A DNA stretch of 64,000 nt. Source: Paralichthys olivaceus (Eukaryota; Chordata; Actinopteri; Pleuronectiformes; Paralichthyidae). The notes under the pieces are model-generated. The model was given only the letters and a program-made list of their open reading frames with translations. It did not search any database and was not told where the DNA came from. This document shows, piece by piece, positions 24,845 to 53,800 of this stretch; the first letter of the stretch is position 1; each line of letters begins with the position of its first letter. The position numbers and the translations under genes were made by a program. The DNA lies in contig NC_091097.1 of NCBI RefSeq assembly GCF_024713975.1, forward strand, positions 3,322,361 to 3,386,360, given 5' to 3'.

Positions 24845-25076
24845 GCCTGATTTTTATTTTCATTTGGATCCATGAATAAAAAATTCAACTAAGTGTTGAA
24901 AAACATCCTATTCCTTAATACAACCTCCAATCTGCATCCACACCAAAATAATAATGTATTCTCCCCTGACCCATACCTCATCCTTCCACCTAGTTATGTG
25001 TTAATCTGTCCAGTAGTTGCGTAATCCTTACCCACAAACAAACACAGACAAAAACATAACCTCCCCCAGAAGTAAA
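24761..25076. repeat. Dispersed repeat spanning the left edge of the NLR array
   Basis: The left end CCTCCACCAAGG and right end CATAACCTCCCCC resemble the inverted ends of an abundant teleost repeat whose body carries text like GTCCAGTAGTTGCGTAATCC and ACAAACAAACACAGACAAAAACATAACCTCC. The boundary of the tandem array falls inside it at 24845, so units 2 and 3 start with the same repeat lacking its first 84 bases. Confidence 0.55.
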
Positions 25077-25187
25077 ATGACATGTTTTATGAAATTATAG
25101 TATTTATTGATTATTTATGAGGTGTAAAGATTGACTTCTTTGGTCCTGTTGGGACCCAGCTCATAAGGGAAATGGAAAGCAATGTTC

Positions 25188-25430
25188 TTTAAGGTACAGT
25201 GTGTAGAATTTAGTGATATCGAGTGTTGAAATTTCATGTTGCAGCTGAACACACCTCACATCACCCTCTCCTTCCAAACATGAAAAAGAACCTGTGATAA
25301 CTTCAGTTGTCATAAAAACTCAAAAGGTGTTTAGTTTGTCCAGTCTGGACTAATGTAAATAACATGGCGGCCTCCGTAGAGAGCAGGATGTAAATATAAA
25401 GTATTTAAATATAAAGGGAAGTTAAAGAAA
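25188..25430. repeat. Truncated copy of MITE-like element (unit 1)
   Basis: It keeps the left terminal repeat TTTAAGGTACAGTGTGTAGAATTTA but loses the right half and right terminal repeat, which are present in units 2 and 3. The lost stretch corresponds to roughly 38259-38775 of unit 2. Confidence 0.75.
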
Positions 25431-25640
25431 GTTAATCTACATCAGGAGCAGGGTCCGCCATGTTGCACCTCCAGGTTTTGGCTCCCTACATACTTGGGTA
25501 AGCTGAGGTGGTATTTAGTTAGTTGCAGCATGCACTGAATATTTAACTCATGATTCCATGTCATAACATATTTTAAACTCCCTGTTTAGGTGTTCCTTGT
25601 CCTCTGGGACCTTGTTTGCCCACAGGGTCCACTCTCCCTC

Positions 25641-27015
25641 CTAAATCTGACAAAGAGTCACTGAGGAGTCGAGCCTGATCATATGCTCCAAGCTGAACAT
25701 AGGGTAGAGAGGTTCAGTGAATGTGGGGTTGAAGGTGTGGAGGTGGAGCAGCTTGTCAGAGGAGACTCTGTAGAAGGACACAGAGCCAGCAGGCCAGTCC
25801 AAATACACTGCCACTTTCTCCAAAACAGAGCTAGGATCACAGATGCATAGATTCCCATGGACTCTGTTGTTGGTGAAGGCAGAGTAGAAGCCTCCGGAGC
25901 CGTACAAGCTCCATGACTTGTCACTGAGACCGAGGCAGCAGTCGGAATCCTTTTCTTTTCGTCTGATTCCTCTGTAAGTCACTCCAACAGACACCCACCC
26001 TTTCCTCATTACCTCCCAGTAACAGCGGCCAGTCAGGCCATCGGTGCACAGCAGCTGCTTCCAGTCGTTGAATCTCTCTGGGTGATCAGGATACGGCTGC
26101 TTTTCCTTCACCAGCGTCACCGTCCTGTTGTCCTCAGACAGACAGAGGTATGCGTTTGCTGTGTTTGGGTCCAGGGTGAGCGGACATGCGTCTGAGAGAC
26201 AAAACAAGAAACTGTTCAGATGCAGGCATCGAGACAGGGGGAACGAAACAGAACCATTTAGCTCCCTGCATCCTGACCTGCAAATTGATTAAATTTGACT
26301 CTATGCAGTATAAGAATAAAGGTGTTTCTGATATTGTGTTTACCGCACCAGAAACATGGCCACAGTTAAAAAAAAACTAACAAGAACAAAGATAAGATGA
26401 CACAGTGATACTCCTCCGCCCTGTTAGAGATCAAAGTGAGAGCCCCACAGACTCCAGATCTGTTTCCCAGAGATCTCATAGTAGTGAATCACACTAAATC
26501 TTTACATTTACGAGTCATATACACACTTACACTTCCTCAGTCCAGATTTCAACAAGTGCATGCCAGTATGATCCACACTAGAAGGATAAACAAACACAAT
26601 CAGCAGACTTATCGTATTTTCTTTTAACAAGCAATAGCAGTTATTTTCAGCCTTCGAGCAGACTTCGGCTCTACAAACCTGAGAGTGTCTAGTCTCCACT
26701 GTGGGTCCTTCACTCCGGCAAAGAGCGGCGTCAGCCCTGAGTCTCCCAGGGGATTGTAGCTCAGGTCCAGCTCCCTCAGATGGGACGGGTTAGAGCTCAG
26801 AGCGGAGGCCAGAGAAGCACAACCTTCCTCTGTGACCAGGCAGCCTGACAACCTACACAGAAAAACTGTGCTTAAAATGAAATCGCACCTAAAGATTGAA
26901 CGTGGATGCAAGTGAATGAAAACATGAAAATCAGCATGAACAATCATCAGTGATGATCACATCTGCTGTTGCTTCATGTCATACATTCATTCCAACGTGC
27001 ACAAACATGCACACA

Positions 27016-27051
<36 letters not shown>

Positions 27052-30000
27052 AGAGTCATAGTCTTACCAAATATATGTCAGGAAGGACCACTAATAAATG
27101 AACACTGAGAAAATAATACCAATACGTTGTGCAATATTACTTCCATTTTATTTATTCCTATTATCATTGTCATGAACACTTTGTGCCACTTTAGTTTAGT
27201 ACTAGTTTATTATCTCATGTAACTTATTTTCTATCGTCATTTCTTCCATGCAATGGTTCTGCAGATGAATATAAAGCATTATAAAGCATTAAAGTTGAAG
27301 AGAAGATTCCTGACCTGAGAGTTTCCAGTCTGCAGTGTGGACTCTTCAGTCCAACACAGAGCAGCTTCACTCCTGAATCCTGCAGGTCGTTGTTACTCAG
27401 GTCCAGCTCTCTCAGCCTGGAGGAGTGGGAGCTGAGGACTGAGGACAGAGCCTCACAGCTTCTCTCTGACAGGTTACATATACCCAACCTGAATCATTCA
27501 TCATAAAAAAATTACAAATAAAAATTCAATATATTTATCCAAAAAGGCAGTTTAACGTATCACAAAGATAGATAGACACGAGATGCAGTGTCACTCATGT
27601 TCTTAAATCCTGAATGAATAATTTATTTTCCTAATAGAAATTGACATCAGATTTTCAATCTGGCTGCCTCTGGTAGTTTGCAATCAGCAAATTCACCTTC
27701 CAGAATCAGATTTGTTGTCATGCTAGCTTTAGAGTTGTTTATTCTTTTTGCCACACACTGGATAATTGGACATGCATTTAGTCAAGCTGTTGGAGAATTT
27801 TAAGAATGCCATGTTCTGGACCACAAGGAAAATAAATCCAAAAGGTCAGCATTTCCAAACTGACACAAAACTTGCAGTTATATTGATCTCAACCTGATCA
27901 TTTCTGTTTTACAGCAGCAGCTCTTCAGTCCACCACAGAGCAGCTTCACTCCTGAATCCTGCAGGATGTTGTTACTCAGGTCCAGCTCTCTCAGCCTGGA
28001 GGAGTGGGAGCTGAGGACTGAGGACAGAGCCTCACAGCTTCTCTCTGAAAGGTTACAGCCAGTCAGCCTGCAGACAAGTCACAAACAAGATTTGCTCACA
28101 AAAGTTTAACTTCAAATCGGTTGGAGATGACATAGAAATACACACTTAGTGTATAATTTTCTGTATTAAGATGAAAAGCATCAGAGGGCTGACACAGTCT
28201 GTGTGCACACTGTATATACCCCTATCAGGCAATGCTATTTATTTTTTAAATTTAATAATGCTGTTTTAAAATAATATGATGATGTCATCTATACCATGAT
28301 GGATAATTGGTTAAAGTTAATGCAATACTGCATCATATGTATATTATGTCATTTTCTGACTTCCCTCTGACATCATGAAGATGTCATTCCTATAATATCA
28401 TAAATCATTTAGTAATTTATATAAGCTTTAGGTTTTTTATGTGATCGTCATTGTCTGTCTTTTTGGTGACGTATTCATGACGCTTATTATTTGACACCAT
28501 ATGACGGAGAAATCATGTTTTGATCAATATAAGCTTTCGTGTTTTTCGCTATTATTTGCAGGAATGTCCTAGAAAATGTGTTTTTCAGACCGTATTTGTT
28601 GTCGACCTTGACCTAGACAGTTCAGCTCTAACAGTTATCCATACCCTCCGAAGCAACAGTCCCTCCATGTGTGGTGAAAATTCATCCATTTGTTGTTAAG
28701 TTATTTTGTTCAGACACACACACACAGTTACACCATGCTGGCATTGGGTAACTAACTGTTTAGCTTTTGCTGCAAAAGAGACTAAAGCAGGCACAAACAT
28801 AATTCATTTAAAAGAGACATTCAAGTTGTTAAGTTGAAGTGAGCTGACCTGAGAGTTTCCAGTCTACAGTGTGGACTCTCCAGTCCACCACAGAGCAGCT
28901 TCACTCCTGAATCCTGCAGGTCGTTGTTACTCAGGTCCAGCTCTCTCAGCCTGGAGGAGTGGGAGCTGAGGACTGAGGACAGAGCCTCACAGCTTCTCTC
29001 TGACAGGTTACAGCCACTCAGCCTGAAGAAGGGTTACAGGTTAACTGATAAAGGAATGTTGAAAAATCACTCTCTTTAATGAGAAATTAATTGAATTAAA
29101 ATGTGTATATTACACCTACAAGAACACAACAGAGTTCCTGACCGCTGGCAGCAGCCTCAGGAGACCTTCCTGTAAAGCAGAGTACTTCCTGAGGTCAAAC
29201 TCATCTCTGTCTTCTTCTGATGACTGAAGGATGAAGACCAGAGCTGACCACTGAGCAGGAGACAGACTTTTACTGGGGAGTCTTCCTGAGCTCAGGTAAT
29301 GTTGGATCTCCTCCACTAAAGAATGATCATGCAGTTCATTCAAACAGTGAAACAGGTTGATGCACCTCTCTGGAGATGGATTCTCTCCGATCTTTTCCTT
29401 AATGTACTGCACTGTTTCCTGAATGGCCTCTGAAGTACTCATTGAGTGTTTCAGCAGCTCTTGTAGGTTATTCTGATTGGCCTCAGTGAAGAGACCCAGA
29501 AGGAAGCGGAGGAACAAGTCGAGGTGTCCATCTGGACTCTCTAAAGCTTTGTCCACTGCCAGTTTTTGGATTGAGGCAATGGACGGTTTGCTAAAAAGCT
29601 TCTGCATGTTTTGGAACTTGAGCTGTTGTTGCACCATTACATTTTTCTTCTTGTTAATGACCGACTTTACCACATAAACTGCAGCCAAAAACTCCTGAAT
29701 ACTCAGATGCACAAAGCTGAACATCTTATCCCCATCCTTGTCCTTCCTCCACAACTGCTCTTTTTTAAACATCTGTGTGAACACCCCAGAGTAAACTGAG
29801 GCTTTTTCAAAATCAATGCCGCTCTCTTTGAGATCTTTTTCATAAAAGATGAGGTTCCTGTTTTCCAGCTGGTGAAATGCCAGTTTTGCAAGTGAATGCA
29901 TGTGTGCAATGCTCTGCTCTGTGCCATACTTTTCCTTTGTCTGTCTAATCTGAAACATCAAGAACCCTGTGTACAACTCCGTCAGGGTCTTGGGCAGCTC

Positions 30001-32262
30001 TCCTCCCACACTGGTTTTCAACAAGTCCTCCAGAACTGCCGCAGTGATCCAGCAGAAGAGTGGAATGTGACACATGATGTGGAGGCTCCGGGATGCTTTG
30101 ACGTGGGAGATGATTCTGCCACATTGCTCCTCTTCCCTGAACCTTTTCCTAAAGTACTCCTCTTTCTGTGGGTCAGTGAACCCTCTCACCTCTGTCATAA
30201 TGTCGACAAAGTCAAGAGGGATCTGATTGGCTGCGGCTGGGCGTGTGGTTATCCAAAGGCGAGCAGAAGGCAGCAGTTCCCCCTTGATGAGGCATGTCAG
30301 CAGGACTTCTACTGTCATTGACTGTGTCACATCAATGCAGGGGTTTGTGTCAGCAGTGAAGTCGAGCCCAAGTCGACTTTCGTCAAGACCATCGAGTACA
30401 AAGAGAAGTTTCAAATTACTCTTGTCGTAGTTGGTGTTTCCTGAAGCCTGTAGCGTTGTGAAGATGTCATTGAGATCCTTCTTCCTCATATCTTGGGTTT
30501 CCCTGATACACTCGTGAATAAGCTCAGCAAAACATAACCTCCTCCCCTTCAGCAAATTCAGCTGGCGGAATGTGAGGGGGAACATGAGGTGCACATCTTG
30601 ATTTGCTCTTGTTTCTGCCCAGTCTAGAATGAACTTGTGTACAAGGAATGTTTTGCCAATTCCTGCAATCCCATTGGTCAGCACTGTTCTTACAGGTAAG
30701 GATTTTCCAGAAGGGTGTTTGAAGATATTGTTGAGTTGGACCGCTTCCTCTATTTGCCCTGGTTCTCTTACTGCCATCTCAATTTTTCTGACTTCATGCT
30801 GCGTGTTGATGTTCACTATGCTCCCATATGTGATGTAGAGCTCTATGTAGATGTCATCAAACTGTTTTTTATCCATTCTTTGAGTCCATCCTTCTTGTGC
30901 ACACATAAATCTGTTCTGGAGGTGTGATTGGAGTGAGTGCTGGTACAATGCCATGGGTTGTGGAGGTTTAGGGTGTGGCAGCAGGAAATCTATTTAACAT
31001 GCAGGGAAAATAAATATTAAAACAAATATATTCTATCTATCTATTTAAAAACCATCATATTTCATTATATATCATATACATGCATGTTTAGGATATAAAC
31101 TGGAAGCAAAACGGAGTGCCCATTTCTCTCCAAGACGATATTGTGGAGAGGCAGCTGTGGTCTAGGGGGGAAATGGGTTGACCATTAATTGCAGGGTTTC
31201 ATCTTGTCCAAATGTTCCCTGAGAAAGAACTCGAGGTTTATTGAAGTAAAAACAGGTCTTTATATGTAAGTAGAGTCAATGTAGGACACCCTGGTACGTC
31301 TGATAGCGTCTCCAGCCAGACACTGGCGTCACCACTTCCTGACATGACTCAGTTATTTCCTGTTTTCAGTAAAGCATCATGTTGGGTGTCAAGGATGCAT
31401 TGGGCACTCTGTCACCTCACTGTCAAATTAATTAATTCTCATTCCCACTGCAGACAAAAGTCACGTTAGCAGATGTTAGCTTTTTTTTTTTACCAGTAGA
31501 CGACGGGCTTTAATGAGATATGTGTATGTTGTTTATTGTACTTTTTAACTTTTGGTAAACTATTTCCCCCCTGCTTCATTTCTTCATGGTGACCTTGGCT
31601 AATTCCTGTTTTCTGTAGCAGTTGCTGATGATTAAGAACCGCAGCTTAGCCTGGCATCTCCAGACCATTTCACATTTGGAAGTGGCTGTGGGACATCTTG
31701 ATTGCTTTTTGATTTCCAAAGAATGTTATCAATGCCTCATTGGTAATTCCTCTTTCATATGTTTAAGAGCAAAAGAAGAGAGTAGCTTTACCAGTCTGAT
31801 TGCTGTTGGTGGGAGGGTGAGGAAGACATGCAGCCGTTGCTCGAATGGAGGATGCTTTGCTGCTCTCTGAAATCTCTCCAACATTATGCATATGTACTGA
31901 GAGATAAAGAGACAAATAAAGTACCCAAGACATTCATTTGATATTTAATTTTTTTTTTTCCATAATGTGTTTTATTTCTTACATTTTGATCCTGAGCTGA
32001 TGCTGGATAACCTCTGCACAAGATCGTTCCTGTTGATCTTTGTCAATACTTTCATGGTCACCTCCATAGAGTGCTCATTATATGTGTGCACAATGAGGTC
32101 CAGTGTGTCCAGCCTGTCTGCCTTCTCTAAATGGCTCTTTGGTATAGCTGGGAAGCCTTCCAGGATTTCAGCCTGCTGCAGGAACCATTTGAAGATTTTT
32201 AGTTCTTCATGTGCCAGATCCTCCAGTGTTTCTAGGAGCAGCTCTGTAACTGCCGCCATCAT
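25641..32262 (-). CDS. NLR immune receptor, PYD-FISNA-NACHT-LRR-B30.2, copy 1 (eight coding exons)
   Basis: Cytosolic NOD-like receptor of the large teleost FISNA-NACHT group, probably named NLRP12-like or NLRC3-like in databases. Exons 5' to 3': 32262-31983 (pyrin), 30989-29120 (FISNA-NACHT), 29022-28849, 28067-27894, 27488-27315 and 26852-26679 (four 174-nt LRR exons), 26577-26531 (47-nt linker), 26191-25641 (PRY-SPRY). All phases agree and no stop interrupts: 1147 residues. Pyrin is 1-93; FISNA about 113-180; Walker A GIAGIGKT at 200-207; Walker [11 protein letters not shown] at 288-297; LRRs 717-949; linker [15 protein letters not shown] joins B30.2 at 965. The pyrin domain predicts recruitment of ASC and inflammasome signalling; that is family knowledge, not shown here. 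It ends in VTLCQI, a usual fish B30.2 ending and likely the ancestral one. Upstream non-coding exons are not resolved. Confidence 0.92.
27019..27049. repeat. (AC)n microsatellite in LRR intron, unit 1
   Basis: AC run of about 31 bp between LRR exons 3 and 4; the unit 2 and 3 counterparts differ in length. Confidence 0.9.
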
Positions 32263-35045
32263 TGGTTCCTAATAAATCAGAGGATGTTTTGCCTCTGACA
32301 AGGACATGATAAAAAATAAAAAAGATTGTATCACAGCATCAGATGATACAGTGGGCTCTGTCTATTGTTTAATTATTGGTAATCATAATATATATATAGA
32401 GAGAGTACTTATCAAAATTCTGATTACAAAGTGATTAACAAGGCAACAATCAAAACAAACAAGTCATACAATCATCAGAATTGAAGAAAAATAGTTGTTA
32501 TAGTTAAAAGACATTAGAAAATAAGACAAATTATGTATATGTAATGTATATTCCAGAAATGACACTCTATATGTGTATTCATATCTTGAGAACCCTTCAT
32601 CTTATCAGCTTCACACTTGGTATGTGCATCTTTATGGGGACAAGGAAGTGCAGTGTTGAATTTGGTATGATTTGGTCTCAGGATACATTCAATAATAATA
32701 AACTGCAGAGTTGTGTGGCCAGGGTCCAGCTTCCAGGGACTGCTTTACTTTTCTTTTCATCGTTTCTGAGAGAATGCTGCAACCAGCATCACCACAGGCC
32801 AAGTTAAAAGCCTGTTTCAAACTGATAGTTCAAGTAAAAGCAAGAAAGCCTCTCTGATATCAGTATAACTGTAAAAGCTTTAGATTTTAGCCAGTACACT
32901 AGGACAGATAGGTGTGATCATGCCTATACAACATGATTTGTCTATAATATTTAATAGGCAGCACTGCCAGCAAAAACACGATGTTCCTTAAAACTGTCAG
33001 GTCTTGGTGAGAAGTTAACACAGTGATTTTCCAGTGTTGTACATAACCTTTCTGTAACTTGCAGTCTTACAGTATGTCAGTAGAAGTTGCTTAAGGGAAG
33101 TAAAATAAGAGGAACAAAATGCTTTGTTGTCACTGTGTGTAGATTTCACATATGCAACACAATTTTAGACAAGAATTTCAATTATTAAATAAAATATTAC
33201 TCTGTGACACTTAAACTATAAGCAGTATAGATAAGAGATTAATAAAATATTCTTTCAAATATTTGACTGTTAGCGCTCATCTTATGCAATTGCTGTTGTA
33301 TTTCCTTTTTAACTATGACACTGTAGAAGTTTTCGGATTCAGATTAACTCTAAATTTTGCACAGGAGAACTGAGTTGAACCATGAATGAAATATCAGTGA
33401 TGATATCAAAAATATCCTTCAGTCAAAACAACCTGACTTAGCATAGTAGTTCTGCTATTTTGTCAAATACCAAATGTTGCAACTTAACGGTGACAACAAT
33501 AACATGTATAATGTTGTCAAATAAGCTCAATTCTGGTCCCAGAGTCACAGTATTATTTATCTAAAGCTACCCTGGCTCGCATCCTCATACATAACTGTGG
33601 AATAAATGGTGATGATGTATGATGTCAAACATGGATAACTTACATCCAAATGAAGAGATTGTCATTGTTCATCTGCAGTTCACAGTAAATATTGACCTTT
33701 GTGCCTCATTGGTCTTTAACCTCTCTGGTGACAGCGAACATCCAGTCGTGTGAGCTGAACAAGTCTGAGGTGGAGAGATTTTTTAAGAAGTATTACTTCC
33801 CCAAATTCAGTGTCTTAGGCAAAATGTCTTTACATCCGAGTCTTGCTGCATTCCGTATATGAAATGCAAATATTCAAACACTGTCCTTATCCAAACCTCC
33901 AATCTGATACATTAAGTATTATTGAAGTTTTTTTATTTTCATTTTAAATCACTATCTTGCTGACAGCAGTACACAGAATGAAGGGAGTGTTATCTGGTAG
34001 ACTGAGCTTAGGTAAATCACGGATGTGATTTAGTTTTCCATTTTGTCCACCAGATGGGGAACTAGCATCTACAGAAAAACATTGCTGCTTGTCTAACATG
34101 CAGTATCCTGCCCCCTCTCCAAGATGGCAGCTCCATGTATCACTGGTGGTGAAAGCTGTAGTTTTTACAATGTATTAGTACATCTAACAGCCATTAAATT
34201 TGTTGTACACATAGTACAGATCAATTACTGTAATTAAGACTATATCTACAGTAAACATGGACAACGCATCCCCATTTCCCAAAAATTTTCGGGAAATGAA
34301 ACAAAAATACATTTTAGAAAACATAAATAAAAAGATGCAATTGGAGTTTCCCCTTTTCTTCTTTATTATTAATATATAACTATATTTCATATATAAACAA
34401 TCCCAACCAACATTACCACCTACACAGCTCTAACACTCCTTTTCTCTTGTTCAGTGAGAGAAGTGAACTCTACCATGTGCTGTCAGCATTTACTACCGTA
34501 AAGACGGAAAAGCAGCGCAGGTTAAAATAACACTACCGTAACTGCAAGAAAAGTTCAAATAGACCGCTCAGTCAAAATGTAATAATCGGTCTGTGTCCGT
34601 GTAGAAAGGCTTCTGGGTGCCGTCCGGACCGCGGTCCGCCTGTTGGGAACCCATGCTTTAGATGATCTTGGGCGATTTTGTTCTCTTCAGCTCGCTCTTA
34701 GGTTGAATCCATGCTTTGACTGTGCGCAGCCACTTTCCTTACGACGCCTCGTCACACGTTGCGCTAATTGACGTATTTACGTAATTGATGACGCATCATC
34801 CCAGCCGAACTGTGCATTTAGTTTATTTTGTGTTTGTTATTATACGCACACTTATAAAAGTTTCATTTGATCAGGACAACTAATCACAATCTTTGCAATG
34901 ACCAGTTTCATGAATATTTAAATTTAAAAAGGCAACGAACTAATGATGCTCCCATGATGCACCTGGTGCACCTGCTGAACTGCCATGTGTGGCACGCGCA
35001 CTCAGAGCTAGCAGTTAGCAGTTAGCAGAGGCAGCAGGAGTCTCC
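32263..35045. other. 5' flank of NLR copy 1
   Basis: It should contain the promoter and any non-coding first exon of the minus-strand NLR gene. AT-rich up to about 34500, then a short CpG-containing stretch at about 34600-34800 with a palindrome-like GGACCGCGGTCC, resembling a decayed transposon end. A plus-strand frame near 33733-33861 is open in all copies but not recognised. No conserved promoter element identified. Confidence 0.45.
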
Positions 35046-35052
35046 CGAGGCA

Positions 35053-36111
35053 GTGCCGCTGCGGACCATCTCCGCGAAGAGCGTGGCGCAGGCACTGTTT
35101 CATGTCATCTCCCGTGTCGGGATTCCGAAAGAAATCCTGACGGATCAGGGCACCTCCTTTATGTCACGTACACTACGCGAGCTGTATGAATTGCTGGGCG
35201 TCCATTCAATCCGGACTAGTGTTTACCACCCACAGACCGACGGGCTGGTGGAGTGGTTTAACAAGACACTAAAGAACATGATTCGTAAGTTCGTGCACGA
35301 GGATAGCCATAATTGGGATAAATGGTTAGACCCTCTGTTATTTGCAGTGCAGGAGGTTCCCCAGTCCTCCACAGGATTTTCCCCATTTGAACTGTTGTTT
35401 GGCCGGAAACCTCGGGGCGTCTTGGACCTGGTAAAAGAAGACTGGGAGACGGGTCTGAGCGCTTCTAAAAACGAGATTCAGTACGTGCTGGACCTGCGAG
35501 CAAAACTCCATTCACTTGGGGTATTATCACGGGAGAATTTGCTCCAGGCCCAGCAACCTCAGCAGCGCCTGTATAACAGAGGGACGAAACTAAGAAAATT
35601 TGATCCGGGAGATAAAGTCCTTGTATTGCTCCCCTCCTCTAGCTCCAAATTACTCGCCAAGTGGCAAGGGCCCTTTGTGGTCACACGACGAGTGGGGGAG
35701 GTAGACTATGAAGTAGTGCGGTCTGACAGGGGTGGGGCAACACAGATCTACCACCTCAACCTCCTTAAAAAGTGGAGAGAGGTGGCCTCTGTTTCTCTGG
35801 CGACCACGGTGATCGAGAGAGATGAGTTGAGACCGGAGGTATCAAAACCGGATTATTCTGCCCCGGTCTGTTATGACGACCATCTCTCGCCAAGCCAGAG
35901 AGCAGAGGTTGCGAGGGTGCAGTGGCGGTTTGCCGATGTGTTCTCCCCCTTGCCAGGACGCACTACGCTCATACACCACCACATAGAGACCCCCACGGGC
36001 GTGACGGTGCGTTCACGGCCCTATCGTTTGACGGAGCACAAGCGGGAAAATTGTGCAGACGGAGCTTCAGGCCATGCTGGAGATGGGGGTAATAGAAGAA
36101 TCCCACAGTGA
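35053..36111 (+). pseudogene. Integrase part of Gmr1-like pol (truncated, frameshifted)
   Basis: The frame is open into the fragment's first bases (PEAVPLRTISAKSVAQ). It lacks the zinc-binding domain and the first catalytic aspartate. It retains the second (ILTDQGTSFMS) and the glutamate region (YHPQTDGLVEWFNKT; in this copy the residue after the glutamate is Trp, in copy 2 Arg), then a GPY/F-type C-terminal module (KWQGPFVVTRRVGEVDYEVV). The reading frame is lost just after an A4 run at 36047-36050, after which it translates nonsense to 36111. The same break occurs in the second junction copy. Confidence 0.88.
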
Positions 36112-37411
36112 CTGGTGTTGCCCCGTGGTGCTTGCGCGCAAGACCGATGGGTCAATACGGTTCTGTGTGGATTATCGTAGGGTGAATGCGGTGTCCAAAT
36201 TTGATGCCTATCCAATGCCCCGGGTCGACGAACTCCTGGACCGGCTAGGCACGGCTCGCTTTTTCACGACACTGGATTTGACCAAGGGCTACTGGCAGAT
36301 CCCCTTGTCTCCAGAGTCCAGGGAAAAAACGGCCTTCTCCACTCCGTACGGTTTGTACCAGTTTGTCACACTTCCGTTCGGGTTGTTCGGGGCCCCAGCA
36401 ACATTTCAACGCCTCATGGACCGGGTTCTGCGGCCACACTTCGCATATGCTGCGGCCTACTTAGATGATGTGATCATTTATAGTGAGACCTGGGAGCAGC
36501 ATATGCGGCAGGTGGGGGCGGTGCTCGAGTCCCTGAGGCGGGCGGGGCTCACGGCCAACCCGAAGAAGTGTGCGGTGGGACGGAGGGAGGTACGGTATCT
36601 GGGGTACCACTTGGGGGGCGGACAGGTGCGGCCGCAGGTAGAGAAGACCGCAGCGGTTGCGGCCTGCCCGGCGCCCAAGACGAAAAAAGAGGTCAGGAGG
36701 TTTTTGGGTCTGGCCGGTTACTACAGGCGATTTATTCCAGCCTTTTCGGAGCTGACCAACCCCCTGACCGACCTGACCCGAAAGGGTGCCTCAGATCCGG
36801 TCCAGTGGACGGAGCAGTGTCAGCTGGCGTTTGAGAGGGTTAAGCTAGCCCTCTGTGGTAAGCCACTGCTGTATACGCCTAACTTTTCTCTCCCTTTTGT
36901 CCTGCAGACGGACGCCTCGAACAGTGGGCTGGGGGCTGTTTTGTCCCAGGAGGTGGAGGGGACCGACTGCCCCGTACTGTATATAAGCAGGAAGCTGGTC
37001 CAGCGGGAGAAGAATTACAGTACGGTGGAAAAGGAGTGCCTCGCCATTCGGTGGGCGGTCGGGGCCCTCCGCTATTACCTCCTGGGGCGCCCTTTCACCC
37101 TCTGGTCGGACCATGCCCCGCTCCAGTGGCTCCACCGCATGAAGGATGCCAACGCGCGTATCACTCGCTGGTATCTGGCTTTGCAGCCATTCAACTTCAA
37201 GGTGATCCACAGGCCGAGTACCCGGATGGTCGTGGCCGACTTCCTCTCCCGCTCGGCGGAGGGGGGGGGGGTGGGCTTGCGGCCGGCGGGATCCCGGCCT
37301 GAGTCGGGCGGTGGGGGTATGTGGCGGTGGGGTATGGTTAGGGCGCCAACTGCTGGACAACAGGGAGGAGTGGCTCAGCTGGTGATCCGACAGCTGGGCA
37401 GAATCAGGTAA
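36053..37411 (+). pseudogene. Reverse transcriptase-RNase H part of Gmr1-like pol
   Basis: Open frame in a different phase from the integrase part. Reverse transcriptase motifs are intact: VVLARKTDGSIRFCVDYR, FFTTLDLTKGYWQIPL, LPFGLFGAPATFQRLM and the catalytic YLDDVIIYS, followed by the thumb/connection (KEVRRFLGLAGYYRRFI) and RNase H (LQTDASNSGLGAVLSQ, YSTVEKECLAIRWAV, TLWSDHAPLQWL). Homology ends at about 37255 (ADFLSRSAE), at a G11 run; beyond this the frame drifts into the LTR. With no start context and a broken upstream part it is not expected to be expressed as a normal Pol. Confidence 0.9.
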
Positions 37412-37667
37412 TCAGGGCAATCAATAAAAGCATGCTTGTAACCTGGTTCTGTCTCTTGTAGTAGGCTGGCGTCCCGAGACACAAGCGGAGCGGATGCACA
37501 TACTTTGGCGGGCGGGGTGTATCACCGGAGTGTGGATTGCAAGACCCGCGAAGCCACAGCTATAAGTATATTGAAGTGTGTACGCTCAGTTGTGAGAGCA
37601 ATAAAAGACTGAACGAAACGCCTTCTCTCCTCCCGTCCTTCCCCGGAGTGGGCCGAGTATTCCCACA
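37320..37667 (+). repeat. 3' LTR of Gmr1-like element, copy 1 (348 bp)
   Basis: It begins TGTGGCGG directly after a purine-rich tract (GGGCGGTGGGGGTA) and ends TTCCCACA, so it has the standard TG...CA limits. AATAAA motifs occur near 37422 and at 37600-37605. No 5' LTR exists in the window, so within-element dating by LTR comparison is impossible. Confidence 0.8.
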
Positions 37668-38013
37668 GCCTGATTTTTATTTTCATTTGGATCCATGAAT
37701 AAAAAATTCAACTAAGTGTTGAAAAACATCCTATTCCTTAATACAACCTCCAATCTGCATCCACACCAAAATAATAATGTATTCTCCCCTGACCCATTAC
37801 TCATCCTTCCACCTAGTTATGTGTTAATCTGTCCAGTAGTTACGTAATCCTGTTTACCCACAAACAAACACAGACAAAAACATAACCTCCCCCAGAAGTA
37901 AAATGACATGTTTTATGAAATTATAGTATTTATTGATTATTTATGAGGTGTAAAGATTGACTTCTTTGGTCCTGTTGGGACCCAGCTCATAAGGGAAATG
38001 GAAAGCAATGTTC

Positions 38014-38602
38014 TTTAAGGTACAGTGTGTAGAATTTAGTGATATCGTGTGTTGAAATTTCATGTTGCAGCTGAACACCCCTCACATCACCCTCTCCTTC
38101 CAAACATGAAAAAGAACCTGTGATAACTTCAGTTGTCATAAAAACTCAAAAGGTGTTTAGTTTGTCCAGTCTGGACTAATGTAAAAAACATGGCGGCCTC
38201 CGTAGAGAGCAGGATGTAAATATAAAGTATTTAAATATAAAGGGCCTTTTCTGGGTTAAAGAAAACTACAATTCATACGATTTAGATGAAACAACTATTG
38301 AAAACATCATGAGGATTATTCTACGTTAAATTTCTGCCAATAGTCCCCTTTCACCTAAATCAGGGTTGTTGAACACATTTTTACACATTTCAAACATCTG
38401 TACTTTTATAACATCTTTTTTTACACATTCAAACATCTGTACCTTTAGAACATCTTATTAATACATTTCAAACATCTGTGCTTTTTTTAACACATCACAT
38501 TTTCTTTTTTAACACTCATCACCACAATCGTGGCCCCCCCTGAAGAACTCTGTCATAACACTTTGAAAAGCCCTGACCTAAATCTTACACACTGGACCTT
38601 TA
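38014..38602. repeat. MITE-like element with terminal inverted repeats (unit 2)
   Basis: 589 bp with ends TTTAAGGTACAGTGTGTAGAATTTA and an inverted counterpart TAAATCTTACACACTGGACCTTTA. No coding capacity. It lies in the 3' flank of NLR copy 2. A second, related-looking fragment (AAAGGTCCAATGTGAAGGATTTAGCAG) starts near 38704. Confidence 0.75.
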
Positions 38603-38919
38603 GAATATAAAATTGTATTAATGTAGAGAGGATAAAGAAAAATACACGAACAGATAAATGAGGTAAACTGGGTGCTATATGGGATAATGGCAGCCTTACC
38701 TTTTAAAGGTCCAATGTGAAGGATTTAGCAGCAGAAGTGAAGCATGATATTCATAATGGTGTACAATTAGAATGAAAGTTAATCTACATCAGGAGCAGGG
38801 TCCGCCATGTTGCACCTCCAGGTTTTGGCTCCCTACATACTTGGGTAAGTTGAGGTGGTATTTAGTTAGTTGCAGCATGCACTGAATATTTAACTCATGA
38901 TTCCATGTCATAACATATT

Positions 38920-40352
38920 TTAAACTCCCTGTTTAGGTGTTCCTTGTCCTCTGGGACCTTGTTTGCCCACAGGGTCCACTCTCCCTCCTAAATCTGACAA
39001 AGTCACTGAGGAGTCGAGCCTGTTTATATGCTCCAAGCTGAACATAGGGTAGAGAGGTTCAGTGAATGTGGAGTTGAAGGTGTGGAGGTGGAGCAGCTTG
39101 TCAGAGGAGACTCTGTAGAAGGACACAGAGCCAGCAGGCCAGTCCAAATACACTGCCACTTTCTCCAAAACAGAGCTAGGATCACAGATGCATAGATTCC
39201 CATGGACTCTGTTGTTGGTGAAGGCAGAGTAGAAGCCTCCGGAGCCGTACAAGCTCCATGACTTGTCACTGAGACCGAGGCAGCAGTCGGAATCCTTTTC
39301 GTTTCGTCTGATTCCTCTGTAAGTCACTCCAACAGACACCCACCCTTTCCTCATTACCTCCCAGTAACAGCGGCCAGTCAGGCCATCGGTGCACAGCAGC
39401 TGCTTCCAGTCGTTGAATCTCTCTGGGTGATCAGGATACGGCTGCTTTTCCTTCACCAGCGTCACCGTCCTGTTGTCCTCAGACAGACAGAGGTATGGGT
39501 TTGCGGTGTTTGGGTCCAGGGTGAGCGGACATGCGTCTGAGAGACAAAACAAGAAACTGTTCAGATGCAGGCATCGAGACAGGGGGAACGAAACAGAACC
39601 ATTTAGCTCCCTGCATCCTGACCTGCAAATTGATTAAATTTGACTCTATGCAGTATAAGAATAAAGGTGTTTCTGATATTGTGTTTACCGCACCAGAAAC
39701 ATGGCCACAGTTAAAAAAAACTAACAAGAACAAAGATAAGATGACACAGTGATACTCCTCCGCCCTGTTAGAGATCAAAGTGAGAGCCCCACAGACTCCA
39801 GATCTGTTTCCCAGAGATCTCATAGTAGTGAATCACACTAAATCTTTAAATTTACGAGTCATATACACACTTACACTTCCTCAGTCCAGATTTCAACAAG
39901 TGCATGCCAGTATGATCCACACTAGAAGGATAAACAAACACAATCAGCAGACTTATCGTATTTTCTTTTAACAAGTAATAGCAGTTATTTTCAGCCTTCG
40001 AGCAGACTTCGGCTCTACAAACCTGAGAGTGTCTAGTCTCCACTGTGGGTCCTTCACTCCGGCAAAGAGCGGCGTCAGCCCTGAGTCTCCCAGGGGATTG
40101 TAGCTCAGGTCCAGCTCCCTCAGATGGGACGGGTTAGAGCTCAGAGCGGAGGCCAGAGAAGCACAACCTTCCTCTGTGACCAGGCAGCCTGACAACCTAC
40201 ACACAAAAACTGTGCTTAAAATGAAATCGCACCTAAAGATTGAACGTGGATGCAAGTGAATGAAAACATGAAAATCAGCATGAACAATCATCAGTGATGA
40301 TCACATCTGCTGTTGCTTCATGTCATACATTCATTCCAACGTGCACAAACAT

Positions 40353-40385
<33 letters not shown>

Positions 40386-43300
40386 AGAGTCATAGTCTTA
40401 CCAAATATATGTCAGGAAGGACCACTAATAAATGAACACTGAGAAAATAATACCAATACGTTGTGCAATATTACTTCCATTTTATTTATTCCTATTATCA
40501 TTGTCATGAACACTTTGTGCCACTTTAATTTAGTACTAGTTTATTATCTCATGTAACTTATTTTCTATCGTCATTTCTTCCATGCAATGGTTCTGCAGAT
40601 GAATATAAAGCATTATAAAGCATTAAAGTTGAAGAGAAGATTCCTGACCTGAGAGTTTCCAGTCTGCAGTGTGGACTCTCCAGTCCACCACAGAGCAGCT
40701 TCACTCCTGAATCCTGCAGGTCGTTGTTACTCAGGTCCAGCTCTCTCAGCCTGGAGGAGTGGGAGCTGAGGACTGAGGACAGAGCCTCGCAGCTTCTCTC
40801 TGACAGGTTACATATACCTAACCTGAATCATTCATCATAAAAAAATTACAAATAAAAATTCAATACATTTATCCAAAAAGGCAGTTTAACGTATAACAAA
40901 GGTATATAGATAGACACGAGATGCAGTGTCACTCATATTCTTAAATCCTGAATGAATAATTTATTTCCTAATGGAAATTGACATCAGATTTTCAATCTGG
41001 CTGCTTCTGGTAGTTTGCAATCAGCAAATTCACCTTCCAGAATCAGATTTGTTGTCATGCTACCTTTAGAGTTGTTTATTCTTTTTGCCACACACTGGAT
41101 AATTGGACATGCATTTAGTCAAGCTGTTGGAGAATTTTAAGAATGCCATGTTCTGGACCACAAGGAAAATAAATCCAAAAGGTCAGCATTTCCAAACTGA
41201 CACAAAACTCGCAGTTATATTGATCTCAACCTGATCATTTCTGTTTTACAGCAGCAGCTCTTCAGTCCACCACAGAGCAGCTTCACTCCTGAATCCTGCA
41301 GGATGTTGTTACTCAGGTCCAGCTCTCTCAGCCTGGAGGAGTGGGAGCTGAGGACTGAGGACAGAGCCTCACAGCTTCTCCTTGACAGGTTACAGCCACT
41401 CAGCCTGCAGACAAGTCACAAACAAGATTTGCTCACAAAAGTTTAACTTCCAATCGGTTGGAGATGACATAGAAATACACACTTAGTGTATAATTTTCTG
41501 TATTAAGATGAAAAGCATCAGAGGGCTGACACAGTCTGTGTGCACACTGTATATACCCCTATCAGGCAATGCTATTTTTTTTTAAATTTAATAATGCTGT
41601 TTTAAAATAATATGATGATGTCAACTATACCATGATGGATAATTGGTTAATCCATATAATTTGTGGTGGTAAAAGTTAATGCAATACTGCATCATATGTA
41701 TATTATGTCATTTTCTGACTTCCCTCTGGCATCATGATGATGTCATTCCTATAATATCATAAATCATTTAGTAATTTATATAAGCTTTAGGTTTTTTATG
41801 TGATCGTCATTGTCTGTCTTTTTGGGGACGTATTCATGACGCTTATTATTTGACACCATATGACGGAGAAATCATGTTTTGATCAATATAAGCTTTCATG
41901 TTTTTCGCTATTATTTGCAGGAATGTCTTGGAGAATGTGTTTTTCAGACCGTATTTGTTGTCGACCTTGACCTAGACAGTTCAGCTCTAACAGTTATCCA
42001 TACCCTCCGAAGCAACAGTCCCTCCATGTGTGGTGAAAATTCATCCATTTGTTGTTAAGTTATTTTGTTCAGACAAACACACACACACACACACACAGTT
42101 ACACCATGCTGGCATTGGGTAACTAACTGTTTAGCTTTTGCTGCAAAAGAGACTAAAGCAGGCACAAACATAATACATTTAAAAGAGACATTCAAGTTGT
42201 TGTTAAGTTGAAGTGAGCTGACCTGAGAGTTTCCAGTCTACAGTGTGGACTCTCCAGTCCACCACAGAGCAGCTTCACTCCTGAATCCTGCAGGTCGTTG
42301 TTACTCAGGTCCAGCTCTCTCAGCCTGGAGGAGTGGGAGCTGAGGACTGAGGACAGAGCCTCACAGCTTCTCTCTGACAGGTTACAGCCACTCAGCCTGA
42401 AGAAGGGTTACAGGTTAACTGATAAAGGAATGTTGAAAAATCACTCTCTTTAATGAGAAATGAATTGAATTAAAATGTGTATGATTACACCTACAAGAAC
42501 ACAACAGAGTTCCTGACCGCTGGCAGCAGCCTCAGGAGACCTTCCTGTAAAGCAGAGTACTTCCTGAGGTCAAACTCATCTCTGTCTTCTTCTGATGACT
42601 GAAGGATGAAGACCAGAGCTGACCACTGAGCAGGAGACAGACTTTTACTGGGGAGTCTTCCTGAGCTCAGGTAATGTTGGATCTCCTCCACTAAAGAATG
42701 ATCATGCAGTTCATTCAAACAGTGAAACAGGTTGATGCACCTCTCTGGAGATGGATTCTCTCCGATCTTTTCCTTAATGTACTGCACTGTTTCCTGAATG
42801 GCCTCTGAAGTACTCATTGAGTGTTTCAGCAGCTCTTGTAGGTTATTCTGATTGGCCTCAGTGAAGAGACCCAGAAGGAAGCGGAGGAACAAGTCGAGGT
42901 GTCCATCTGGACTCTCTAAAGCTTTGTCAACTGCCAGTTTTTGGATTGAGGCAATGGACGGTTTGCTAAAAAGCTTCTGCATGTTTTGGAACTTGAGCTG
43001 TTGTTGCACCATTACATTTTTCTTCTTGTTAATGACCGACTGTACCACATAAACTGCAGCCAAAAACTCCTGAATACTCAGATGCACAAAGCTGAACATC
43101 TTATCCCCATCCTTGTCCTTCCTCCACAACTGCTCTTTTTTAAACATCTGTGTGAACACCCCAGAGTAAACTGAGGCTTTTTCAAAATCAATGCCGCTCT
43201 CTTTGAGATCTTTTTCATAAAAGATGAGGTTCCTGTTTTCCAGCTGGTGAAATGCCAGTTTTGCAAGTGAATGCATGTGTGCAATGCTCTGCTCTGTGCC

Positions 43301-45636
43301 ATACTTTTCCTTTGTCTGTCTGATCTGAAACATCAAGAACCCTGTGTACAACTCCGTCAGGGTCTTGGGCAGCTCTCCTCCCACACTGGTTTTCAACAAG
43401 TCCTCCAGAACTGCCGCAGTGATCCAGCAGAAGAGTGGAATGTGACACATGATGTGGAGGCTCCGGGATGCTTTGACGTGGGAGATGATTCTGCCACATT
43501 GCTCCTCTTCCCTGAACCTTTTCCTAAAGTACTCCTCTTTCTGTGGGTCAGTGAACCCTCTCACCTCTGTCATAATGTCGACAAAGTCAAGAGGGATCTG
43601 ATTGGCTGCTGCTGGGCGTGTGGTTATCCAAAGGCGAGCAGAAGGCAGCAGTTCCCCCTTGATGAGGCATGTCAGCAGGACTTCTACTGTCATTGACTGT
43701 GTCACATCAATGCAGGGGTTTGTGTCAGCAGTGAAGTCGAGCCCAAGTCGACTTTCGTCAAGACCATCGAGTACAAAGAGAAGTTTCAAATTACTCTTGT
43801 CGTAGTTGGTGTTTCCTGAAGCCTGTAGCGTTGTGAAGATGTCATTAAGATCCTTCTTCCTCATATCTTGGGTTTCCCTGATACACTCGTGAATAAGCTC
43901 AGCAAAACATAACCTCCTCCCCTTCAGCAAATTCAGCTGGCGGAATGTGAGGGGGAACATGAGGTGCACATCTTGATTTGCTCTTGTTTCTGCCCAGTCT
44001 AGAATGAACTTGTGTACAAGGAATGTTTTGCCAATTCCTGCAATCCCATTGGTCAGCACTGTTCTTACAGGTAAGGATTTTCCAGAAGGGTGTTTGAAGA
44101 TATTGTTGAGTTGGACCGCTTCCTCTATTTGCCCTGGTTCTCTTACTGCCATCTCAATTTTTCTGACTTCATGCTGCGTGTTGATGTTCACTATGCTCCC
44201 ATATGTGATGTAGAGCTCTATGTAGATGTCATCAAACTGTTTTTTATCCATTCTTTGAGTCCATCCTTCTTGTGCACACATAAATCTGTTCTGGAGGTGT
44301 GATTGGAGTGAGTGCTGGTACAATGCCATGGGTTGTGGAGGTTTAGGGTGTGGCAGCAGGAAATCTATTTAACATGCAGGGAAAATAAATATTAAAACAA
44401 ATATATTCTATCTATCTATTTAAAAACCATCATATTTCATTATATATCATATACATGCATGTTTAGGATATAAACTGGAAGCAAAACGGAGTGCCCATTT
44501 CTCTCCAAGACGATATTGTGGAGAGGCAGCTGTGGTCTAGGGGGGAAATGGGTTGACCATTAATTGCAGGGTTTCATCTTGTCCAAATGTTCCCTGAGAA
44601 AGAACTCGAGGTTTATTGAAGTAAAAACAGGTCTTTATATGTAAGTAGAGTCAATGTAGGACATCCTGGTACGTCTGATAGCGTCTCCAGCCAGACACTG
44701 GCGTCACCACTTCCTGACATGACTCAGTTATTTCCTGTTTTCAGTAAAGCATCATGTTGGGTGTCAAGGATGCATTGGGCACTCTGTCACCTCACTGTCA
44801 AATTAATTAATTCACATTCCCACTGCAGACAAAAGTCACGTTAGCAGATGTTAGCTTTTTTTTTTTACCAGTAGACGACGGGCTTTAATGAGATATGTGT
44901 ATGTTGTTTATTGTACTTTTTAACTTTTGGTAAACTATTTCCCCCCTGCTTCATTTCTTCATGGTGACCTTGGCTAATTCCTGTTTTCTGTAGCAGTTGC
45001 TGATGATTAAGAACCGCAGCTTAGCCTGGCATCTCCAGACCATTTCACATTTGGAAGTGGCTGTGGGACATCTTGATTGATTTTTGATTTCCAAAGAATG
45101 TTATCAATGCCTCATTGGTAATTCCTCTTTCATATGTTTAAGAGCAAAAGAAGAGAGTAGCTTTACCAGTCTGATTGCTGTTGGTGGGAGGGTGAGGAAG
45201 ACATGCAGCCGTCGCTCGAATGGAGGATGCTTTGCTGCTCTCTGAAATCTCTCCAACATTATGCATATGTACTGAGAGATAAAGAGACAAATAAATTACC
45301 CAAGACATTCATTTGATATTAAAATTTTTTTTTCCATAATGTATTTTATTTCTTACATTTTGATTCTGAGCTGATGCTGGATAACCTCTGCACAAGATCG
45401 TTCCTGTTGATCTTTGTCAATACTTTCATGGTCACCTCCATAGAGTGCTCATTATATGTGTGCACAATGAGGTCCAGTGTGTCCAGCCTGTCTGCCTTCT
45501 CTAAATGGCTCTTTGGTATAGCTGGGAAGCCTTCCAGGATTTCAGCCTGCTGCAGGAACCATTTGAAGATTTTTAGTTCTTCATGTGCCAGATCCTCCAG
45601 TGTTTCTAGGAGCAGCTCTGTAACTGCCGCCATCAT
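38920..45636 (-). CDS. NLR immune receptor, PYD-FISNA-NACHT-LRR-B30.2, copy 2 (eight coding exons)
   Basis: Same architecture as copy 1. Exons 5' to 3': 45636-45357, 44364-42495, 42396-42223, 41404-41231, 40822-40649, 40196-40023, 39921-39875 and 39536-38920; 1169 residues. Seen differences from copy 1: Gly91 to Glu at the end of the pyrin exon, Lys535 to Gln in the NACHT exon, one altered LRR residue pair (CVGLKS to CGGLES), and several in B30.2, including Ala to Pro in the start of PRY. Two bases present in copy 1 near the stop are missing, so the reading frame passes the old stop and adds a 28-residue tail after VTL ([14 protein letters not shown]...) instead of CQI. The second LRR exon starts [14 protein letters not shown]. 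Nothing in the sequence argues against it being functional. Confidence 0.92.
40354..40383. repeat. (AC)n microsatellite in LRR intron, unit 2
   Basis: Counterpart of the AC tract at 27019-27049; its flanks are the same but the run length differs. Confidence 0.9.
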
Positions 45637-48452
45637 TGGTTCCTAATAAATCAGAGGATGTTTTGCCTCTGACAAGGACATAATAAAAAAAAAAGATTGT
45701 ATCACAGCATCAGATGATACAGTGGGCTCTGTCTATTGTTTAATTATTGGTAATCATAATATATATATAGAGAGAGAGTACTTATCAAAATTCTGATTAC
45801 AAAGTGATTAACAAGGCAACAATCAAAACAAACAAGTCATACAATCATCAGAATTGAAGAAAAATAGTTGTTATAGTTTAAAGACAGTAGAAAATAAGAC
45901 AAATTATGTATATGTAATGTATATTCCAGAAATGACACTCTATATGTGGATTCATATCTTGAGAACCCTTCATCTTATCAGCTTCACACTTGGTATGTGC
46001 ATCTTTATGGGGACAAGGAAGTGCAGTGTTGAATTTGGTATGATTTGGTCTCAGGATACATTCAATAATAATAAACTGCAGAGTTGTGTGGCCAGGGTCC
46101 AGCTTCCAGGGACTGCTTTACTTTTCTTTTCATCGTTTCTGAGAGAATGCTGCAACCAGCATCACCACAGGCCAAGTTAAAAGCCTGTTTCAAACTGATA
46201 GTTCAAGTAAAAGCAAGAAAGCCTCTCTGAATCAGTATAACTGTAAAAGCTTTAGATTTTAGCCAGTACACTATAGGACAGATAGGTGTGATCATGCCTA
46301 TACAACATGATTTGTCTATAATATTTAATAGGCAGCACTGCCAGCAAAAACACGATGTTCCTTAAAACTGTCAGGTCTTGGTGAGAAGTTAACACAGTGA
46401 TTTTCCAGTGTTGTACATAACCTTTCTGTAACTTGCAGTCTTACAGTATGTCAGTAGAAGTTGCTTAAAAGGGAAGTAAAATAAGAGGAACAAAATGCTT
46501 TGTTGTCACTGTGTGTAGATTTCACATATGCAACACAATTTTAGACAAGAATTTCAATTATTAAATAAAATATTACTCTGTGACACTTAAACTATAAGCA
46601 GTATAGATAAGAGATTAATAAAATATTCTTTCAAATATTTGACTGTTAGCTCTCATCTTATGCAATTGCTGTTGTATTTCCTTTTTAACTATGACACTGT
46701 AGAAGTTTTCGGATTCAGATTAATTCTAAATTTTGCACAGGAGAACTGAGTTGAACCATGAATGAAATATCAGTGATGATATCAAAAATATCCTTCAGTC
46801 AAAACAACCTGACTTAGCATAGTAGTTCTGCTATTTTGTCAAATACCAAATGTTGCTACTTAACGGTGACAACAATAACATGTATAATGTTGTCAAATAA
46901 GCTCAATTCTGGTCCCAGAGTCACAGTATTATTTATCTAAAGCTACCCTGGCTCGCATCCTCATACATAACTGTGGAATAAATGGTGATGATATATTTGT
47001 CAAACATGGATAACTTACATCCAAATGAAGAGACTGTCATTGTTCATCTGCAGTTCACAGTAAATATTGACCTTTGTGCCTCAGCCCTCTGTGCCTCATT
47101 GGTCTTTAACCTCTCTGGTGACAGCGAACATCCAGTCGTGTGAGCTGAACAAGTCTGAGGTGGAGAGATTTTATAAGAAGTATTACTTCCCCAAATTCAG
47201 TGTCTTAGGCAAAATGTCTTTACATCCGAGTCTTGCTGCATTCCGTATATGAAATGCAAGTATTCAAACACTGTCCTTATCCAAACCTCCAATCTGATAC
47301 ATTAAGTATTATTGAAGTTTTTTATTTTCATTTTAAATCACTATCTTGCTGACAGCAGTACACAGAATGGATGGAGTGTTATCTGGTAGACTGAGCTTAG
47401 GTAAATCACGGATGTGATTTAGTTTTCCATTTTGTCCACCAGATGGGGAACTAGCATCTACAGAAAAACATTGCTGCTTGTCTAACATGCAGTATCCTGC
47501 CCCCTCTCCAAGATGGCAGCTCCATGTATCACTGGTGGTGAAAGCTGTAGTTTTTACAATGTATTAGTACATCTAACAGCCATTCAATTTGTTGTACACA
47601 TAGTACAGATCAATTACTGTAATTAAGACTATATCTACAGTAAACATGGACAACGCATCCCCATTTCCCAAAAATTTTCGGGAAATGAAACAAAAATACA
47701 TTTTAGAAAACATAAATAAAAAGATGCAATTTGAGTTTCCCCTTTTCTTCTTTATTATTAATATATAACTATATTTCATATATAAACAATCCCAACCAAC
47801 ATTACCACCTACACAGCTCTAACACTCCTTTTCTCTTTGTTCCCACTTTCTCTTGTTCAGTGAGAGAAGTGAACTCTACCATGTGCTGTCAGCATTTACT
47901 ACCGTAAAGACGGAAAAGCAGCGCAGGTTAAAATAACACTACCGTAACAGCAAGAAAAGTTCAAATAGAGACGCTCAGTCAAAATGTAATAATCGGTCTG
48001 TGTCCGTGTAGAAAGGCTTCTGGGTCCCGTTCGGACCGCGGTCCGCCTGTTGGGAACCCATGCTTTAGATGATCTTGGGCGATTTTATTCTCTTCAGCTC
48101 GCTCTTAGGTTGAATCCATGCTTTGACTGTGCGCAGCCACTTTCCTTACGACGCCTCGTCACACGTTGCGCTAATTGACGTATTTACGTAATTGATGACG
48201 CATCATCCCAGCCGAACTGTGCATTTAGTTTATTTTGTGTTTGTTATTATACGCACACTTATAAAAGTTTCATTTGATCAGGACAACTAATCACAATCTT
48301 TGCAATGACCAGTTTCATGAATATTTAAATTTAAAAAGGCGACGAACTAATGATGCTCCCATGATGCACCTGGTGCACCTGCTGAACTGCCATGTGTGGC
48401 ACGCGCACTCAGAGCTAGCAGTTAGCAGTTAGCAGAGGCAGCAGGAGTCTCC
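45637..48452. other. 5' flank of NLR copy 2
   Basis: Counterpart of 32263-35045 with two additional short stretches: 18 bp near 47084 (a duplication of CTCTGTGCCTC-type sequence) and about 20 bp near 47838. It should hold the promoter of copy 2. No distinct element recognised. Confidence 0.45.
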
Positions 48453-48459
48453 CGAGGCA

Positions 48460-50794: not shown

Positions 50795-51076
50795 TCCGAC
50801 AGCTGGGCAGAATCAGGTAATCAGGGTAATCAATAAAAGCATGCTTGTAACCTGGTTCTGTCTCTTGTAGTAGGCTGGCGTCCCGAGACACAAGCGGAGC
50901 GGATGCACATACTTTGGCGGGCGCTGTGTATCACCGGAGTGTGGATTGCAAGACCCGTGAAGCCACAGCTATAAGTATATTGAAGTGTGTACGCTCAGTT
51001 GTGAGAGCAATAAAAGACTGAACGAAACGCCTTCTCTCCTCCCGTCCTTCCCCGGAGTGGGCCGAGTATTCCCACA
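50729..51076 (+). repeat. 3' LTR of Gmr1-like element, copy 2 (348 bp)
   Basis: Same TGTGGCGG...TTCCCACA limits and length as 37320-37667. It runs directly into GCCTGATTTTT, the first bases of tandem unit 3. Confidence 0.8.
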
Positions 51077-51422
51077 GCCTGATTTTTATTTTCATTTGGA
51101 TCCATGAATAAAAAATTCAACTAAGTGTTGAAAAACATCCTATTCCTTAATACAACCTCCAATCTGCATCCACAACAAAATAATAATGTATTCTCCCCTG
51201 ACCCATACCTCATCCTTCCACCTAGTTATGTGTTAATCTGTCCAGTAGTTGCGTAATCCTGCTTACCCACAAACAAACACAGACAAAAACATAACCTCCC
51301 CCAGAAGTAAAATGACATGTTTTATGAAATTATAGTATTTATTGATTATTTATGAGGTGTAAAGATTGACTTCTTTGGTCCTGTTGGGACCCAGCTCATA
51401 AGGGAAATGGAAAGCAATGTTC

Positions 51423-53761: not shown

Positions 53762-53800
<39 letters not shown>

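Follow-up and report, generated by a model that had tools for sequence, protein, structure and literature searches.

The 64,000-bp stretch of Paralichthys olivaceus DNA analysed in this work (contig C5, 3322361-3386360, of a 588 Mb assembly in 25 contigs; hereafter the window) carries a tandem array of three direct units, U1 to U3, of 10.2-10.9 kb each. Every unit contains one immune-receptor (NLR) gene on the minus strand with the domain order PYD-FISNA-NACHT-LRR-B30.2, and the units are separated by two copies, X1 and X2, of a retroelement piece acting as spacers. The array is therefore U(XU)2, with X+U (about 13.4 kb) as the repeating unit. The unit-end sequence GCAGCAGGAGTCTCC is found at 35031, 48438 and 61926, and the sequence leading from the end of X into the start of a unit, CCCACAGCCTG, at 37662 and 51071. 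X is absent from both outer edges of the array (24844/24845 and 61940/61941), and in a self-alignment of the window it matches nowhere besides its own two positions. A preliminary description of the window had placed the retroelement piece at both unit junctions and at neither outer edge; sequence searches and the self-alignment bear this out, and the junction coordinates given there are right to the base. The 5′ part of the element is absent from the window, where only its long terminal repeat (LTR) is matched, by the LTRs of X itself, apart from chance-level matches of 20-22 bases.

In the genome searches the best 40 candidates were scored for each query, and statements on other loci hold for those. 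No second high-identity place was found for the left flank (L) with the start of U among the best 40 of 2860 candidates, nor for the right flank (R) with the end of U among the best 40 of 75. For the SPRY exon (best 40 of 44 candidates) and the NACHT exon (best 40 of 74), likewise, no other high-identity locus was retrieved. Other NLR exons matched with about 69-78% identity at best, too distant to polarise changes, and rooting of U1-U3 by paralogous exons was abandoned for this reason. Parts of U are dispersed repeats with matches elsewhere of 90-95% (left query) and 67-91% (right query). Elsewhere in this assembly, the scored matches included neither a copy with one unit nor an element next to L. 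The evidence that the locus has no second copy in the assembly is strong, but not complete.

The sequence identifies X as the 3′ portion of an LTR retrotransposon, which is Gmr1-like by gene order alone and not a member of Gmr1-4. Pfam domains found in X comprise the tail of the integrase core, the integrase C-terminal domain, reverse transcriptase (RT) and RNase H, followed by the 3′ LTR; the cut-short rve core scored 28 bits against a cut-off of 32.6 and so fell below it, and the integrase C-terminal, RT and RNase H domains exceeded theirs. The integrase domains lie in the frame 35026-36111 and RT with RNase H in the frame 36032-37411 of the same strand, so that integrase lies upstream of RT as in Gmr1-type elements. 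The genome search with 37300-37800 (best 40 of 196 candidates, 43 matches listed) gave many LTR matches running from query base 21 or 1 to 367-369, i.e. from about 37320 to 37667 of the window (within a base). Nine loci were fetched, among which five full-length elements and one solo LTR were scored and three loci (L014, L015 and L016) were left out. The full-length elements measure 4928-4942 bp, have TG...CA termini and LTRs of 343-347 bp that differ within a pair by 0 or 1 base, and are flanked in five cases out of five by 5-bp target duplications: AGGAC (two copies), GTATC, GTTAC and ATGGG. The two AGGAC copies have the same flank and hence count as one event, which leaves four independent target sites. 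The solo LTR, 97% like the LTR of X, is flanked by CTAAC on both sides. The full-length copy tested in this respect holds a single frame of 1452 codons. Two full-length elements on different contigs, L011 (C10) and L012 (C4), have the same target duplication and agree in the 12 flanking bases visible at either end; element and surroundings together may have passed from one chromosome to another as a copied segment.

The Gmr1 element has been described as having its integrase before RT/RNase H in a Copia-like order, and fish Gmr and Mag elements as encoding gag-pol in one frame (PMC2774666, PMC11117352; available portions of both). In these two features, integrase before RT and RNase H and the single frame, the family of X resembles Gmr1-type Ty3/Gypsy elements. 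The fish Gmr1-4 elements are 6.06-6.47 kb long, in contrast to 4.93-4.94 kb for full copies of the X family; Mag elements, at 4.70-4.81 kb, are nearer in length, but their LTRs of 208-211 bp are shorter (PMC11117352, in the part available). Pattern searches of two contig collections gave 4 matches in viral_contigs, none a relative, and 21 in genome_contigs, of which one, on a contig from a bacterial bin, is a relative (35% identical) and was not used. Scans of the window with Rfam (gathering threshold) and for tRNA were empty.

The two ends of X are of different kinds. At the right end, the LTR of X ends in AGTATTCCCACA, the exact terminus found in full-length copies, and is followed by GCCTG (at 37668 and 51077); at the left edge of the array GCCTG directly follows L. 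Since copies of the family carry 5-bp target duplications at the same LTR terminus, GCCTG is best read as the integrase target site and the left edge as the empty site. Accordingly worded, CCCACA/GCCTG looks like an ordinary integration junction and L/GCCTG like an unoccupied site.

At the left end, where the unit end runs into the middle of the integrase gene, lies the only non-homologous junction of the array, identical at X1 and X2. The native element reads ...TATCC/CGAGG, the right edge of the array ...GTCTCC/GCGCTCG and the X junction GTCTCC/CGAGG; TCC could come from either side and therefore represents 3 bp of microhomology. The scan for the breakpoint motif covered 18 loci outside the window (L021-L038), 4 of them without the motif; TATCC is present in all 14 distinct motif-bearing copies, followed by CGAGG in 13 and by TGAGG in one. 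X is preceded by the five bases TCTCC and not by GCCTG. That a truncated element simply inserted at a unit-unit junction was rejected because no target duplication stands on both sides (TCTCC left, GCCTG right). Non-allelic homologous recombination between dispersed element copies was also rejected, as the founding junction lacks long homology and only TCC is common. A truncation hotspot in the integrase gene is not claimed: partial copies start at several other places (search with 801 native bases, best 40 of 68 candidates), although this list is too small to exclude one. The one partial copy checked (C22:776230) has an internal deletion, not a truncation.

That the right end of X is an integration scar and its left end an illegitimate join is, in our opinion, very probable. 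The preliminary description took the fragment for the breakpoint of the duplication, as opposed to a passenger within the unit. This holds for the left end, an illegitimate breakpoint that is identical at both junctions; it does not hold for the right end, where CCCACA is the exact terminus of a 348-bp LTR at what looks like an integration junction with the GCCTG target. Most likely the element began as an inserted passenger, and the repeat came about later through a break within it. The spot does record how the array probably arose, as was proposed, being half insertion scar and half breakpoint. More generally, where the limit of a repeat is set by the end of a transposon, it may mark an insertion site and not a duplication breakpoint.

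Table 1 Features of the array (window coordinates)
Feature	Position	Length	Strand	Basis or remark
Unit U1, left copy with NLR gene	24845-35045	10201 bp	-	Left edge is the putative empty target site; no X or element 5′ part to the left
Unit U2 with NLR gene	37668-48452	10785 bp	-	First five bases GCCTG, the target-site sequence after the LTR
Unit U3 with NLR gene	51077-61940	10864 bp	-	DNA beyond the right edge has no second locus among the matches scored
X1, 3′ part of LTR retrotransposon	35046-37667	2622 bp	+	Pfam domains; full-length relatives
X2, second element piece, same two junctions as X1	48453-51076	2624 bp	+	21 substitutions and one gap relative to X1
3′ LTR of X1 (TGTGG...CCACA)	37320-37667	348 bp	+	Limits matched by other genome copies
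GCCTG, putative unoccupied target site at left outer edge	24845-24849	5 bp		Same five bases after LTR end at 37668 and 51077
TCC microhomology common to unit end and native element	35043-35045; same at 48450-48452	3 bp		Native element compared with right-edge sequence
FISNA-NACHT-winged helix-HD2 exon	U1 29116-30993; equivalents 42491-44368, 55974-57851		-	Pfam on U1
PYD (pyrin domain) exon of U3	58830-59126		-	PF02758, E 1.7e-22
PRY-SPRY (B30.2) exon	U1 25641-26288; equivalents 38920-39633, 52329-53042		-	Pfam on U1

The units differ pairwise by 0.75-0.83% overall, and the noncoding part of U by 0.967, 0.952 and 0.967% (6516 columns). X1 and X2 differ at 21 of 2622 aligned bases, i.e. by 0.80% (95% interval 0.50-1.14), and by one 2-base gap. 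Since the junctions are identical in both copies of X and the divergence of U and X is similar, the three units and two spacers fit one short episode of amplification, or a later homogenisation shared by all of them. Private substitutions number 43 in U1, 41 in U2 and 36 in U3. One frameshift and four substitutions private to X (3 replacement, 1 silent) arose before the split of X1 and X2; they are absent from 17 other copies (18 were fetched for this alignment; L038, matched over only 1300 bases, was left out). As these changes predate the split, they hint that the genome already harboured the element when the duplication took place. The changes in X since the split look neutral (4 silent, 12 replacement).

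The NLR genes carried by the units gave a different picture from X in one of their exons. Domain scans identified the FISNA-NACHT-winged helix-HD2, LRR and PRY-SPRY exons in U1 and the PYD exon in U3, the equivalent exons of the remaining units being placed by alignment and from the list of open reading frames. The domains of fish NLR-B30.2 proteins, PF14484, PF05729, PF13516, PF13765 and PF00622 in U1 and PF02758 in U3, were all above cut-off; the FISNA domain, together with the genes present, points to a bony fish. Across the three copies the NACHT exon shows 6 silent changes and 1 replacement, against 4:12 in X after the X1/X2 split (Fisher p = 0.019), whereas the LRR and SPRY exons, with few changes that are mostly replacements, display no such constraint. 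The NACHT exons thus seem to have been kept under constraint while X drifted, and for this reason all three genes look as if they had been kept in working order. Near the end of the B30.2 exon the copies differ by 2 bp, and with this difference the C-terminus changes: the frame is 215 amino acids long in U1 and 237 in U2 and U3.

As the origin of the array we propose the following course of events. The element would have been inserted at GCCTG beside U, and the insertion would have been polymorphic. In a heterozygote for the insertion, the end of U on the empty chromosome (L-U) would then have become linked to the middle of the integrase gene in the element on the occupied homologue (element-U-R), through microhomology-mediated end joining or a switch of replication template, with L-U-X-U-R as the product of the single join. 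Such a join would account for X at the junction, for outer edges without the element, for the missing target duplication to the left of X and for the intact LTR end to its right. Soon after, unequal homologous exchange between misaligned units may have added the third copy, giving U-X-U-X-U with both junctions carried along. The junctions are seen in the one assembly at hand, and the heterozygote and the exchange are what we infer from them; we prefer this account to the rival histories and give it close to an even chance.

In one rival history, an older tandem duplication with longer units received the element in the spacer before its second unit. A single deletion would then have taken away the spacer together with the original junction and the 5′ half of the element, so that X would mark the deletion and the original duplication breakpoint would be lost. 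Common events suffice for this, and it too predicts an intact LTR end at GCCTG with no target duplication to the left of X, yet it requires three events before the expansion. Moreover, the first duplication should then predate the X1-X2 split by as long as the element had been resident, whereas the divergences of U1-U3 (0.95%) and X1-X2 (0.80%) are equal within error; gene conversion could mask a difference in age, and we regard this history as unlikely. The leading element may, on the other hand, have been lost: if the duplication arose on a single chromosome that carried the element (L-element-U-X-U-R), the first element would be removed by ordinary allelic recombination with an empty chromosome, or by way of a U-X circle that recombined into an empty allele. 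The same junctions are predicted and recombination inside a 10 kb unit is ordinary, but one step more is needed than for the heterozygote join, and the left edge holds neither a solo LTR nor the element 5′ part; we consider this course distinctly improbable. An assembly artefact in which units were falsely repeated has to be considered for a single assembly without reads. A copied contig would be identical, while the units differ by about 0.8% plus indels of up to 513 bp and the copies of X at 21 sites, which makes an artefact very improbable indeed.

A further alternative assigns an active part to the element. A truncated complementary DNA (cDNA) could have been used in the duplication itself, either by one-ended integration, with integrase joining the LTR end to GCCTG while the broken end became attached to the sister chromatid where U ends, or by capture of both its ends during break repair; the element itself would then have caused the gene duplication. 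One event would yield L-U-X-U-R, and the 3′ portion retained in X is what an incomplete first strand of LTR reverse transcription would contain. Capture of retrotransposon sequences at breaks has been published for mouse zygotes (PMC4516963, as far as the available part goes). Plain end-joining, however, need not preserve an exact LTR terminus, and the frameshift and mostly replacement private changes common to both copies of X suggest an element resident before their split. We hold the use of a cDNA to be rather unlikely. Its most specific form, a failed integration in which integrase fixed the LTR end of an incomplete cDNA at GCCTG and the cell attached the raw end to the sister chromatid at a distance of 10 kb, appears distinctly improbable; if true, a retrotransposon would have directly created a tandem immune-gene array with itself as the spacer.

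Several observations weigh against the proposed heterozygote join and subsequent exchange. Private gaps are unevenly distributed (19 in U1, 7 in U2 and 1 in U3; chi-square p = 9e-5), an excess that none of the models considered here explains. The left-right mosaic of U2 expected after one crossover is visible as a trend only (best single change-point p = 0.085), and U2 is not claimed to be a crossover mosaic. The stem of X is short and could in part reflect change in the source lineage or copying error. Finally, a second tandem array lies about 2.1 Mb away on the same contig (L051-L053, C5:5478000-5507700), with periods of 1457 bp and about 6.6-6.8 kb and with eight pieces of the element family of X, all beginning at position 2305 of the element and thus 20 bp away from the breakpoint of the window; such events may recur in this genome, or the likeness may be a coincidence. 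The low end of this second array carries an apolipoprotein L-like frame (PF05461). As to the private gaps of U1, one is 513 bp long, and on visual inspection two resemble deletions between short direct repeats.

Arrays in which transposable elements accompany gene duplication have been known from other systems. In the Cyp6g1-Accord alleles of Drosophila the LTR element Accord is inserted upstream of the gene and its presence correlates with higher expression, while X in the window is a spacer and forms one junction. The Sdic array of Drosophila melanogaster is likewise a young tandem gene array with a partial retrotransposon (Rt1c) in its repeat, prone to unequal exchange; Rt1c is a non-LTR element inside the repeat, and the available part of the source describes no empty insertion site at the array edge (PMC7475035). 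Zebrafish NLR-B30.2 expansions also consist of tandem NLR genes, for which unequal crossing-over with the help of transposable elements has been proposed; the involvement of elements is inferred there in general (PMC11192531, within the portion available), whereas the array in the window is resolved to the base. No paper was retrieved by a literature search on retroviral integration accompanied by tandem duplication, and we do not claim that none is in print. Transposable elements are frequently credited with a part in the growth of immune-gene arrays. In our judgement the founding junction of such arrays is rarely legible. Here both ends can be read, one as an integrase scar with its empty counterpart at the array edge and the other as a join with 3 bp of microhomology, and from an array of three copies with about 1% divergence precise expectations follow for haplotypes within the species. 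The locus is a clean, well-resolved example of a transposon-associated tandem duplication of an immune gene, and not a new kind of process.

Two minor features complete the description of the window. A 79-bp stretch at 54512-54590 is present in U3 only, being absent from U1 and U2. To the left of the NLR array, plus-strand exons at 13381-21026 belong to what we presume to be a UBE2Z-like gene.
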